From: Propionicicella superfundia DSM 22317
Lineage (GTDB): Bacteria > Actinomycetota > Actinomycetes > Propionibacteriales > Propionibacteriaceae
NCBI RefSeq assembly: GCF_000423465.1
Contig: NZ_KE384020.1
Span: 427,671-491,670 of the forward strand
Reading direction: 5' to 3'
Length of the DNA stretch: 64,000 bases
The notes beneath the pieces were generated by a model, which was not told where the DNA came from, made no database searches, and was given only the letters and a program-made list of their open reading frames with translations. A program made the position numbers and the translations under genes. Position 1 is the stretch's first letter, and every line of letters starts with the position of its first letter. Shown here piece after piece: positions 28,889 through 37,664 of this stretch.

Positions 28889-31561
28889 GTGAGCATCAAC
28901 TCATTCGGGGCGCGGTCCCCGCTACAGGTGGGGGACACCTCCTACGAGATCTTCCGGATAGATGCCGTGGACGGGTCGGAGACCTTGCCCTTCAGCCTCA
29001 AGGTGCTGCTGGAGAACCTGCTGCGCACCGAGGACGGGGCCAATGTCACCGCCGAGGAGATCACGGCCCTCGGATCCTGGGATCCCGGCGCCGATCCGTC
29101 CAAGGAGATCCAGTTCACCCCGGCCCGGGTGATCATGCAGGACTTCACGGGCGTGCCCTGCGTGGTCGACCTCGCGACGATGCGGGAGGCGGTGGAGGAC
29201 CTGGGTGGCGACCCGTCCGTCATCAACCCCCTGTCTCCGGCCGAGATGGTCATCGACCACTCCGTCATCGCCGATCTCTTCGGCACCCCGAACGCGTTCG
29301 AGCGCAACGTCGAGCTGGAGTACGAGCGCAACCGCGAGCGCTACCAGTTCCTCCGGTGGGGGCAGACCGCGTTCCACGACTTCGTCGTCGTCCCCCCGGG
29401 CACCGGCATCGTCCATCAGGTCAACATCGAGCACCTGGCCCGTGTCGTCTTTCCACGGGTCGTCGACGGGGTGCTGCAGGCCTACCCCGACACGTGCGTC
29501 GGCACCGACTCGCACACCACGATGGTCAACGGACTCGGTGTCCTCGGTTGGGGAGTGGGCGGCATCGAGGCCGAGGCGGCCATGCTCGGCCAGCCGGTCT
29601 CGATGCTCATCCCGCGGGTCGTCGGGTTCAAGCTGACCGGTGAACTGCCCGAGGGCGCGACCGCGACCGACCTGGTCCTCACCATCACCGACATGCTGCG
29701 CCGGCACAAGGTCGTCGGCAAGTTCGTCGAGTTCTACGGGACCGGCGTGGGGCAGGTGCCGCTGGCCAACAGGGCGACGATCGGCAACATGAGCCCCGAG
29801 TACGGTTCCACGATCGCGATCTTCCCGATCGACGACCTGACGACCGATTACCTGCGGCTGACGGGCCGCACCGAGGAGCAGATCGCCCTCACCGAGGCGT
29901 ACGCCAAGGAGCAGGGCCTGTGGCACGATCCGTCGATCGAGCCGCGCTTCTCCGAGTACCTCGAGCTCGACCTCGCGACGGTCGTCCCCAGCATCGCCGG
30001 ACCGAAGCGTCCGCAGGACCGCATCCTGCTGTCGTCGGCCAAGGAGGCGTTCCTGGAGGCCGTCAAGGACTACGCGACCGACAAGTCCGTGCCGGCGACG
30101 GTGTCGCTGCCCGACGGAGAGACGTTCGAACTGGGCAACGGCGCGGTCACGATCGCCGCGATCACGTCGTGCACGAACACCTCCAACCCGTCGGTCATGG
30201 TCGGCGCCGGGCTGCTGGCCAAGAAGGCCGTCGAGGCCGGTCTGCGGCGGCGGCCCTGGGTGAAGACGTCGCTCGCGCCGGGCTCGAAGGTCGTCACGGA
30301 CTACTACCACGCCTCCGGGCTCGACCAGTATCTCCAGGCGCTCGACTTCGACCTCGTCGGGTACGGCTGCACGACCTGCATCGGCAACTCCGGGCCGCTC
30401 ATCCCCGAGGTGTCCGCCGCGGTGAACGCGAACGACCTGGCGGTGACCGCGGTGCTGTCGGGCAACCGGAATTTCGAGGGGCGAATCAATCCCGACGTGA
30501 AGATGAACTACCTCGCCAGCCCTCCCCTGGTGGTGGCGTACGCCTTGGCCGGCCGCATGGACATCGACCTCGCCCACGAGCCGCTCGGACAGGGCACCGA
30601 CGGCAAGGACGTGTACCTGCGCGACATCTGGCCGACGCCGACCGAGATCGAGGAGATCGTCGGCAGTTCCATCAACTCCGAGATGTTCACGTCGCGCTAT
30701 GCGGACGTCTTCCACGGCGACGAGCGGTGGCGTTCGCTGCCGACCCCCGAGGGTGACCTGTTCGCCTGGGCCGACGACTCCACGTACATCCGCAAGCCGA
30801 GCTACTTCGAGGACATGCCGGCCGAGCCGCGGCCGGTCGGGGACATCTCCGGCGCGCGTGTGCTGCTTCGACTCGGCGACTCCGTGACGACCGACCACAT
30901 CTCGCCGGCCGGCTCCATCAAGGCCGATACGCCCGCGGGCCGGTATCTCACCGAGCACGGGGTGGAGCGCAAGGACTTCAACTCGTACGGGTCGCGTCGC
31001 GGCAACCACGAGGTGATGGTGCGCGGCACGTTCGCCAATATCCGGCTCCGCAACCAGCTCGCGCCGGGTACCGAAGGGGGTTTCACCCGGGACTTCACCG
31101 TCGCAGATGCCCCCGTGACCACGGTCTACGAGGCGGCGCAGCAGTACGCGGCCGCGGGGACTCCGCTGGTCGTGCTCGCCGGCAAGGAGTACGGCTCCGG
31201 GTCGTCGCGCGACTGGGCGGCGAAGGGCACGGCCCTGCTGGGTGTCCGGGCGGTGATCGCGGAGAGCTACGAGCGCATCCATCGTTCGAACCTGATCGGC
31301 ATGGGCGTGCTGCCGTTGCAGTTCCCCGAGGGTGAGAACGCCGACTCGCTCGGGCTGAGCGGTGAGGAGACCTTCGAGATCGCCGGCATCACGGGGCTGA
31401 ACGAGGGCGTCACGCCCGAGACGGTGACGGTGACGGCGACGCAGGGCGGGCACACGATCACCTTCCAGGCGCGGGTGCGGATCGACACCCCGGGGGAGGC
31501 CGATTACTACCGGCACGGCGGCATCCTGCAGTACGTGCTTCGGCAGCTTGTCGGTAGCTGA
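28889..31561 (+). CDS. acnA: aconitate hydratase A
   Basis: An 890-residue aconitase that interconverts citrate and isocitrate in the citric acid cycle. The [4Fe-4S] ligands are in [13 protein letters not shown] (about residue 430) and [14 protein letters not shown]. The swivel domain contains [16 protein letters not shown] (about 770) and [19 protein letters not shown]. Length equals the AcnA family. GGAG lies five bases before the GTG at 28889. It is transcribed alone: a palindromic operator lies upstream and a strong terminator 75 bp downstream. Confidence 0.96.
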
Positions 31562-34151: not shown

Positions 34152-34233
34152 GCGTCCAGCCTCGTGCATCGATTAATTCGAGACAAGCAGATATTTCCGA
34201 ACGATCATTCGATGATGCCGTATGTTTGGTGCC

Positions 34234-35157
34234 ATGCTGGATCTCAATCGACTGCGCATCCTCCGGGCTGTCGTCGCGAGCGGTTCGGTGACCGACACCG
34301 CCAGGCAGCTCGGCTACACCCCGTCCACGATCAGCCAGCACGTCCACACGCTCGAACGGGAGGTGGGGTTCTCGGTCGTCGAGCGCTCCGGCCGCGGCAT
34401 CGTGCCGACCGCGGCGGGGATCGCGCTCGCCGAGGCCAGCGGGGAGGTCCTGGTGGCGCTGTCGCACCTGGACGCCACGGCGCGGGATCTGCGCGGACAG
34501 ACCAGCGGACGACTGTCGATCCGGACCTTCGCCTCCGCGGCCTACACCTGGATGCCCGGGATCGCCCGCGCGCTGCGCCGCGAGTTCCCCGGGCTGACGC
34601 TGGAACTCTCGCTCGACATGGACGCGCCGGACGACTTCGTGGGCGATATCGAGGTTCTCAGCGAGGTTCCCTTCGACGCACCGACCGTCGTCCCGGGCTA
34701 CACGCGGCGCGAACTCGGCAGCGACGACTTCCTGCTCGCTGTCCCGCCCGAGCATCCGGCCGCCGCGCGGGGGACGGCGCCGCTGGCGGACTTCGCGGGT
34801 GAGGACTGGGTGCAGTACGACTTCCGCGACAAGCTGAGTGCGCGGATCGTAGGGCAGGCCTGCGCGGCCGCCGGCTTCACGCCCCGGTATGTCGCACGGT
34901 CCCAGGATCACGTGACCGGTCTGGCGCTCGTCGCGGCCGGGGTGGGTGTCGCCATCGTCCCCCGCCTGGCGCTGGACTGGTCGCACTTCGAGGTCGCGTC
35001 GGTGCGGGTCACGAACCCCGTTCCGCAGCGACGCATCGTCGTCCTGTGGCGCACCGGCGTGCGCGCCAATCCCGCCGCTCAGCGCACCCTCGCGCTCCTG
35101 GCGGGACTCGCGGCAACCCTCGATGCTCCCGGCTCAGGCGCCGCACGCTCGCGCTGA
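34234..35157 (+). CDS. LysR-family transcriptional regulator
   Basis: A 307-residue regulator. The N-terminal winged helix has VVASGSVTDTARQLGYTPSTISQHVHTLE (about 12-40), followed by the linker helix and a periplasmic-binding-protein-like effector domain from about residue 90. TATGTT seven bases before the ATG at 34234 favours this start over one four codons upstream. The 80-bp upstream region is AT-rich for this genome and contains the divergent gene's start, so self-control and control of that small gene are plausible. Effector unknown. Confidence 0.87.
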   Translation: MLDLNRLRILRAVVASGSVTDTARQLGYTPSTISQHVHTLEREVGFSVVERSGRGIVPTAAGIALAEASGEVLVALSHLDATARDLRGQTSGRLSIRTFASAAYTWMPGIARALRREFPGLTLELSLDMDAPDDFVGDIEVLSEVPFDAPTVVPGYTRRELGSDDFLLAVPPEHPAAARGTAPLADFAGEDWVQYDFRDKLSARIVGQACAAAGFTPRYVARSQDHVTGLALVAAGVGVAIVPRLALDWSHFEVASVRVTNPVPQRRIVVLWRTGVRANPAAQRTLALLAGLAATLDAPGSGAARSR

Positions 35158-35193: not shown

Positions 35194-35237
35194 TGGACAG
35201 CCGCCGGCGGGCGCCCTAGAATCGAACACACGTTCGA
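35194..35237 (+). promoter_or_regulatory. SOS promoter with perfect LexA box
   Basis: TGGACA (35194-35199), 17 bp, TAGAAT (35217-35222), overlapped by TCGAACACACGTTCGA (35222-35237). The last is an exact match to the actinobacterial LexA consensus TCGAAC-N4-GTTCGA. It covers the -10 end and the start site, so LexA would block transcription until DNA damage. Confidence 0.82.
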
Positions 35238-35251
35238 CGACAGGGGGAGCG

Positions 35252-35668
35252 ATGACAATGACGATGACACGGTCGCGACCGACCGACGCCTTCGCCGGCA
35301 CAGCCATCTACGTTCCACCGGGATGGCCCGAGGCGGTGCGCCCGCCCGGCACCCCCGACTGGGAGGACACGGCGGCGGCGTTCCTGCTCGACTGCTGTCC
35401 GGCCGACTACCGGGCGTATCCAGTACTGCGACGGCACCCCGTCGTCCTCGCGCGCTTCGCTGCGGACTTCGTGGAGTCGCAGATCCGGGCGAGCCGGGAC
35501 TCACTGGGCGGGTTGCGCGCCGGGCTGCAGGGCTATGTGGATCCCCGGGTCGTCCAGTCCGCAGCCGACGCATGTCAGGAGCAGGAGGCCTCCCTGGTGA
35601 GGACGCGACGCGCGGTCGCGCTCATCGAAGAGGCACTGCGCGGAAAGGTGTTCCTGCGGCGGCTGTGA
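35252..35668 (+). CDS. LexA-controlled protein of unknown function
   Basis: A 138-residue soluble, mostly helical protein. Residues 20-35 read [19 protein letters not shown], followed by [31 protein letters not shown] and a C-terminal helix ending [14 protein letters not shown] recall similar unnamed proteins in other actinobacteria but no function. Three in-frame ATGs (35252, 35258, 35264) follow GGGGAG; the second has the best spacing. Its promoter carries a perfect LexA box, so it should be induced by DNA damage. The next gene, dxs, has its own promoter. Confidence 0.75.
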
Positions 35669-35711: not shown

Positions 35712-35724
35712 TACACTGACAGGG
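35712..35724 (+). promoter_or_regulatory. leaderless promoter of dxs
   Basis: TACACT at 35712-35717, six bases, then the GTG at 35724. Confidence 0.55.
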
Positions 35725-37664
35725 TGTTCGTGCTCGATGGAATCCATGGCCCGGCCGACCTGCGCCGGCTCGACAGGGAAGAGCTCGACGCACTCGCGTC
35801 CGAGATCCGCTCCTTCCTCGTCTCGACGGTGTCGCGGACCGGCGGGCACCTGGGGCCGAATCTGGGCGTGGTCGAGCTGACCGTCGCGCTCCACCGGGTG
35901 TTCGACTCCCCGCAGGACGCGATCATCTTCGACACCGGCCACCAGAGCTACGTTCACAAGATCCTCACCGGGCGCAAGGACGGCTTCGCGACGCTGCGCC
36001 AGGCAGGGGGGCTGTCGGGTTACCCGAGTCGCGACGAGTCCGCGCACGACATCGTCGAGAACTCGCACGCGTCGACCTCCCTGTCGTGGGCCGAGGGGCT
36101 GGCGAAGGCCCGGCGGCTCACCCGGGCCGGCGGCGTGGTCGTCGCGGTCATCGGCGACGGAGCGCTCACGGGCGGCATGCCGTGGGAAGCGCTCAACAAC
36201 ATCGCGGTCCAGCGCGACCTCGGGCTGGTGATCATCGTCAACGACAACGGTCGCTCCTACACGCCGACCGTGGGCGGTCTCGCGACCCGCCTCACCGCGT
36301 TGCGCACCGATCCGCGCTACGAACTGACCCTGCGCCGCATCAAGGAGGACCTGCCCAAGGCACCCGTGATCGGCAAGCCCGCCTACGATCTGCTGCACGC
36401 CATCAAGACCGGCGTGAAGGACATCACGGCGACGCAGGGGCTGTTCTCCGACCTCGGCATCAAGTACGTCGGTCCGGTCGACGGGCACGACGTCCTCGCT
36501 CTCGAACACGCGCTGACGGCGGCGAAGAACTTCGGCGAGCCGGTCATCGTCCACTGCATCACCCAGAAGGGGCGCGGCTACAAGGCCGCCGAAGAGAACA
36601 CCGAGGACCACTTCCACGCGGTCGGCAAGATCGACGAGGCGACGGGAGTCCCGCTCGCCGGTGCAGTCCGACCCACGTGGACCGACGCCTTCGGCGACGA
36701 ACTGGTGCGGATCGGGACGCAGCGGTCCGATGTCGTCGCGATCACCGCCGCGATGCTCCACCCGACGGGCCTGGGTCGATTCCGCTCCCTGTTCCCCGAC
36801 CGCACCTTCGACGTCGGCATCGCCGAGCAGCATGCGGTCGCCTCCGCGGCCGGGCTCGCCCAGGGCGGGTTGCATCCCGTCGTGGCGGTGTACGCCACAT
36901 TCCTCAACCGCGCCTTCGACCAGGTCCTCATGGATGTCGCGCTGCACCGACTCGGTGTCACCTTCGTCCTCGACAGGGCCGGCGTCACCGGTCCCGACGG
37001 AGCGAGCCACAACGGCATGTGGGACCTCTCGATCCTTCAGGTCGTGCCGAACATCGCGATCGCGGCCCCGCGCGACACCCCGACCCTGCGAGCGGCGTTG
37101 CGGCGGGCCGTCGAGATCGCCGACGGGCCCAGCGTCGTGCGGTTCCCGAAACAGGAGGCCACGGAGCCGATCCCGGCCGAGCGGCAGGAGGGTCCCACGG
37201 ACATCCTCCTCACCAGCGACGAGCCGGCGATCCTGGTCGTGGGGTACGGCCCGATGGCCGCCACCGCGATCCGGGTGGGCAAGCGGCTCCGGCAGCACGG
37301 TCTGGGCGCCACCGTCGTCGATCCGGTCTGGGCACTCCCGGTCGCCCCCGAACTCGTCGCGTTGTGCGCCCGCCACGAGCTCGTCGTCACCATCGAGGAC
37401 AACAGCGTCGTCGGCGGGGCCGGTGCGCGGCTCATGGTCGAACTCGCCGAGGCGGGGGTCCGGACGCCGGTCCTGCCGTTCGGCCTGGCTCCGGAGTTCC
37501 TGCCGCACGGCGACCGTGCCGACCTCCTGGCCCGGGCCCGGCTCACGCCGCAACCCATCGCTCTGGCGGCCACCGAGGCGCTGCTGTCGATTCGCGAAGG
37601 CGAGCCGACCGGGCGGGCCGTGGATGCCGGCGAGGGGACGATCCGCACGCCGACCGCGGAGTAG
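35724..37664 (+). CDS. dxs: 1-deoxy-D-xylulose-5-phosphate synthase
   Basis: A 646-residue thiamine diphosphate enzyme that condenses pyruvate and glyceraldehyde 3-phosphate, the first step of the MEP isoprenoid pathway. The ThDP motif runs from [16 protein letters not shown] to VNDNG (about 150-175). The active-site histidine is in [10 protein letters not shown] near 75, and the transketolase pyrimidine domain has [11 protein letters not shown] and [15 protein letters not shown]. Full length. It converges on the next gene with 16 bp between and no evident terminator. Confidence 0.95.

Follow-up and report, generated by a model that had tools for sequence, protein, structure and literature searches.

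The promoter, LexA box, and neighborhood of gene X

The window, by which we mean the whole 64-kb stretch of DNA that was analyzed, contains an orphan open reading frame (ORF) of 138 amino acids, to which we gave the label gene X. It is preceded by a sigma-70-like promoter and a LexA box, and it lies between genes encoding a LysR-family regulator and 1-deoxy-D-xylulose-5-phosphate synthase. The relevant features are as follows:

28889..31561, + strand: presumably acnA (aconitase), named by sequence recognition rather than by a family search; apparently the ancestral 5′ neighbor of gene X in many families
34222..35157, + strand: LysR-family regulator, the 5′ neighbor; its position beside gene X is not conserved
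35194..35199, + strand: −35 hexamer TGGACA (sequence; sigma-70-like site scan)
35217..35222, + strand: −10 hexamer TAGAAT, after a 17-bp spacer (sequence; sigma-70-like site scan)
35222..35237, no strand assigned: LexA (SOS) box TCGAACACACGTTCGA, an exact palindrome immediately 3′ of the −10 hexamer (sequence, motif count, orthologues)
35242..35249, + strand: Shine-Dalgarno-like AGGGGGAG (by eye)
35252..35668, + strand: gene X, encoding a 138-amino-acid, predicted soluble helical protein (ORF, orthologues, predicted fold)
35712..35717, + strand: TACACT, a possible separate −10 element of dxs (by eye, inference)
35724..37664, + strand: dxs (1-deoxy-D-xylulose-5-phosphate synthase), the 3′ neighbor

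The LexA box and the −10 hexamer share a single base, position 35222. A TGGACA-N17-TAGAAT promoter overlapped by an exact SOS box had been proposed from the sequence alone, and this proposal is correct to the base. The same sequence-only reading rightly placed the box in front of the 138-residue ORF, but its gap of 15 bp is in fact 14 bp when measured to the ATG at 35252. The stop codon ends at 35668, and in-frame ATGs at 35258 and 35264 offer alternative starts. An exact TCGAACN4GTTCGA occurs only once in the 64-kb window, at 35222-35237 (0.004 occurrences of the 12-base exact palindrome expected by chance from the base count). Similarly, a scan of both strands between 34900 and 36200 found no sigma-70-like site other than the gene X promoter (0.0 expected from shuffles). 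A sequence with two mismatches from the LexA box, CCGAACGATCATTCGA, is situated at 34197-34212, directly 5′ of the LysR gene, and is more likely to be a LysR operator than a LexA site.

Gene X and dxs are on a common strand and are separated by 55 bp. The dxs start codon is a GTG at 35724, and TACACT ends 6 bases 5′ of it; the dxs message appears to be leaderless, beginning at this GTG.

Gene X is conserved among actinomycetes, and its LexA box is found in some lineages

Orthologues of gene X are present in 68 of 147 relatives and in 157 of 394 genomes of the class, with identities of about 30 to 72%. Because of this distribution, the ORF is, as judged by sequence conservation, a real gene. 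Searches of 396 genomes of the phylum outside the class members returned a single weak partial match (E = 8e−4, 46 residues); by these searches, the gene X family is confined to the actinomycete class, bar that one match.

To score the box, we searched the 250 nucleotides upstream of the conserved domain for their closest match to TCGAACN4GTTCGA at 159 distinct loci, which comprise the orthologues from the 147 relatives and the 394 class genomes with one duplicate locus excluded; start codons of the orthologues were assigned by rule. The box was exact at 56 loci and carried one mismatch at 21 and two mismatches at 15, while the corresponding numbers in a downstream control of equal length were 0, 0, and 9 (9 loci in total). 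In a named set of 80 loci that overlaps the 159-locus set, 33, 26, and 8 loci (67/80) had such boxes upstream, and 0, 0, and 4 had them downstream.

The boxes with up to two mismatches are unevenly distributed among families. They precede gene X at 43 of 50 loci in Propionibacteriaceae, all 18 loci in Nocardioidaceae, 26 of 32 loci in Streptosporangiaceae, 4 of 6 in family f31, and in the one genome of family f45 (the names of families f1, f3, f18, and f20 were inferred from named relatives). None was found upstream of gene X in about 23 further families, Streptomyces included (0 of 8 loci). The sequence-only reading had made its case depend on boxes at orthologues, which are present in five families (92/159 loci) and missing in about 23 others. 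Given this absence, SOS control would belong to certain lineages and not to the whole protein family. Genomes of the box-less families have exact LexA boxes at other genes in 8 of 9 cases checked, which argues that in these families gene X itself is outside the regulon. The protein tree of the gene X family tracks bacterial families, pointing to mainly vertical inheritance, and box presence switched at least 11 times by a fewest-changes count.

The LexA box belongs to gene X and not to its neighbors

The gene order acnA-X-dxs is widespread, box-less families included, and looks ancestral. In box-less families, gene X often lies right behind acnA and before dxs, in some of them with operon-like spacing. 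Loci that have the acnA-X linkage and no box include L053, L056, L058, L063, L122, L124, L163, and L168, among others.

It could be argued that the box chiefly controls dxs and that gene X is a passenger in an X-dxs operon, since the co-oriented dxs begins 55 bp past gene X here and is arranged likewise at most Propionibacteriaceae loci. We consider this very improbable. At the boxed loci of Nocardioidaceae (18) and Streptosporangiaceae (26), dxs never adjoins gene X, and in the window dxs has the leaderless-promoter-like TACACT of its own at 35712. We thus rejected control of dxs as the main role of the box. Because gene X in these two families has retained the box with neither acnA nor dxs adjoining, the box is, on comparative grounds, best assigned to gene X.

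LexA boxes elsewhere in the genome

Matches to named organisms assign the window to the Propionibacteriaceae. Genome-wide, there are five exact boxes, where base composition predicts about 0.2, and 40 one-mismatch sites, compared to 4 for a reversed control pattern. Besides gene X, the exact boxes are found at an HEPN_SAV_6107 gene (G000:C1:192744; L031); at a gene without a Pfam match that lies about 2.4 kb 5′ of dnaE2, on the dnaE2 strand and in the position of imuA′; at a 110-amino-acid gene that is divergent from lexA and appears to encode a single transmembrane segment; and at a DUF222 gene (G000:C3:366257; L035 462-1529), where the box is right at the gene start. The last of these suggests damage control of a member of DUF222, an abundant family of unknown function. 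One-mismatch boxes are located upstream of lexA (G000:C1:388917) and at recA. Since lexA, recA, the gene on the dnaE2 side, and others carry the box, the motif is used in this genome, and gene X keeps core SOS company.

Eight genomes, picked for a boxed gene X, have 3 to 6 exact boxes each, one of them always at gene X. LexA is present in every relative that has gene X. One Propionibacteriaceae genus (g4; G003, G026, G046, G062, and G076) has no detectable LexA DNA-binding domain, and gene X is also absent from it. In two relatives, we observed a boxed operon of DUF6504, HEPN, and DnaE-like (PHP) genes (L317 1509-3014 and L320 1-1490); this arrangement resembles a cassette for an SOS polymerase other than DnaE2.

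With the box retained in front of orthologous genes in five families and tracking gene X, with LexA encoded, and with lexA and recA boxed, the LexA control claimed by the sequence-only reading is strongly upheld by comparative sequence evidence, and we regard it as highly likely.

A second damage-associated motif at some gene X loci

We also searched for a PafBC (RecA-NDp)-like motif, TTGTCRGTG-N8-YANNNT. With up to two mismatches, it occurs upstream of gene X at 17 of 159 loci (1.9 expected from shuffles) and at none downstream. In two Propionibacteriaceae genera, g17 (L090, L097, and L106) and g27 (L028 and L109), it lies 5 to 8 bp before the LexA box, which makes these loci candidates for dual control by both damage pathways. 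In one genome of family f9, the motif is upstream of a gene X that has no LexA box. Genomes bearing the motif at gene X are enriched in it (35 matches versus 3 for the reversed control). The motif adds to the link between the gene X family and DNA damage, but it is not decisive.

Gene X is predicted to encode a soluble helical-hairpin protein

The protein has no match in Pfam, NCBIfam, PHROG, PADLOC, or PDB sequences, and our literature search found no paper on the gene. This lack of family or structure matches bears out the assertion that gene X does not belong to the known genes for repair, mutagenesis, or division. An AlphaFold2 model, built from a 124-row alignment (pLDDT 92.9, pTM 0.80), has helices at residues 37-48, 63-92, and 98-129. 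The predicted fold consists of an extended conserved N-terminal segment (PPGWP...PP), short helices, and a long antiparallel hairpin formed by helices 63-92 and 98-129. No transmembrane segment is evident in the model, from which we confidently predict a soluble helical-hairpin protein. Foldseek comparisons to PDB and viral structures gave nothing below E = 0.4, and the hits were generic antiparallel coiled coils only.

The nearly invariant residues (W25, P26, L45, P50, R54, L66, and R89) are mostly of a structural kind, and no catalytic residue set stands out in the family alignment. The net charge of the family is near zero (median, +1), which argues against plain DNA coating. Taken together, these properties lead us to infer that the product is a protein-binding factor.

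Other affiliations were considered and dismissed. A phage origin was rejected because there is no relative on viral contigs, no PHROG match, and only chance-level phage matches. A defense system was ruled out by the absence of a PADLOC match, and a relationship to HEPN received an hhalign probability of 0.3 percent.

Proposed role of gene X in the DNA damage response

We propose the following model on the basis of the LexA box, its placement, and its retention among orthologues. In an undamaged cell, a LexA dimer on 35222-35237 would cover the region just 3′ of the −10 hexamer and block transcription; upon DNA damage, RecA-stimulated cleavage of LexA would open the promoter. The product, made in response to damage, would then most likely bind another protein in the cytoplasm and serve as an adaptor in, or a modulator of, replication, recombination, or repair. 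Because the LexA site has been retained beside the gene in five families, gene X is very probably a new, uncharacterized part of the actinomycete DNA damage response. The full explanation, a LexA-repressed SOS gene encoding a small soluble protein-binding damage factor, stands in our view at an even balance, and the case for the product acting in repair, replication, or recombination as a binding factor induced by damage is about evenly balanced at best.

A more specific possibility is that gene X encodes a soluble SOS cell-division inhibitor that, like SulA, restrains FtsZ or the divisome during repair. Like many division inhibitors, gene X is small, LexA-controlled, and an orphan, and its predicted fold is soluble; moreover, Streptomyces, as described in one study (PMC9380542), has no clear counterparts of the established SOS division inhibitors, which leads one to expect an unknown inhibitor in this group. 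On the other hand, gene X matches no division-inhibitor model in Pfam or NCBIfam, its Streptomyces members are boxless, and the usual actinobacterial place of a division inhibitor, beside lexA, is already occupied by the boxed 110-amino-acid gene with its apparent transmembrane stretch. The gene X family is also strongly conserved throughout the class, while division inhibitors usually diverge fast. We therefore find such a role unlikely, and the product is probably not a membrane division inhibitor.

The lack of a box in about 23 families, Streptomyces included, implies that gene X has or had a role outside SOS, and the frequent acnA-X-dxs adjacency could reflect a metabolic link. Hence, an old helper of central metabolism, belonging to the aconitase or isoprenoid neighborhood or to general oxidative stress and recruited to SOS in some families only, is a serious rival, even if an unlikely one. 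It is favored by the acnA-X-dxs order in many box-less families, sometimes with operon-like spacing, and by box-less genomes that mostly use the same LexA motif at other genes. Against it, gene X of Nocardioidaceae and Streptosporangiaceae lost its acnA and dxs neighbors yet retained the box, and certain members that lack a LexA box have the PafBC-like motif, a hint of damage control in these as well.

Least credible is a DnaE2 accessory, or a part of an ImuA′-ImuB-DnaE2 mutasome, even though gene X and the gene 5′ of dnaE2 both carry a LexA box in this genome. DnaE2 falls below the cutoff in 36 of 51 Propionibacteriaceae genomes with gene X and is present in 17 of 36 without it (raw counts, kinship ignored). 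Because gene X and DnaE2 do not track each other, we rejected a DnaE2 partnership. Finally, a bolder version of the damage-factor reading, in which gene X represents a new damage-response class with a new small fold, under LexA and PafBC in some lineages, and supplies Propionibacteriales and Streptosporangiaceae with their missing soluble factor for a checkpoint or for fork protection, seems to us rather improbable.

Comparison to known damage-response systems

The LexA regulon of the checked actinomycetes looks very small, and one of its rare places is held by the family-less protein X. Retention of its LexA control across several families makes gene X a strong single candidate for a repair or checkpoint factor not described before; many antibiotic producers belong to these bacteria.

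As in the Actinomycetota LexA regulon described for Streptomyces venezuelae in PMC9380542, the TCGAACN4GTTCGA box of gene X is located at a sigma-70 promoter, and LexA is encoded here with recA and lexA boxed too. In contrast, gene X is not among the core targets in Table 1 of that study, as far as the descriptions given there allow a judgment, and the Streptomyces members of its family have no box. Unlike the window, which has no PafBC-like (RecA-NDp-like) motif, the g17 and g27 loci carry this motif before the LexA box and thereby resemble mycobacterial genes for which joint control by LexA and PafBC is reported (PMC6789036, PMC8223512).

HEPN_SAV_6107 (PF18726) is another small LexA-boxed protein of this genome, found in 27 of 51 Propionibacteriaceae genomes with gene X and in 2 of 36 without it (raw counts, kinship ignored). 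Protein X differs from it in matching no PF18726 profile, and HEPN_SAV_6107 sits in the DUF6504-HEPN-DnaE-like operon in relatives, whereas gene X does not. The division inhibitors SulA, YneA, DivS, ChiZ, and SidA are small, LexA-controlled, and poorly conserved between groups. Gene X is likewise small and, by its box, probably LexA-controlled, but no homology of its product to these proteins was found, and the product has no evident transmembrane or LysM domain and is conserved throughout the class.
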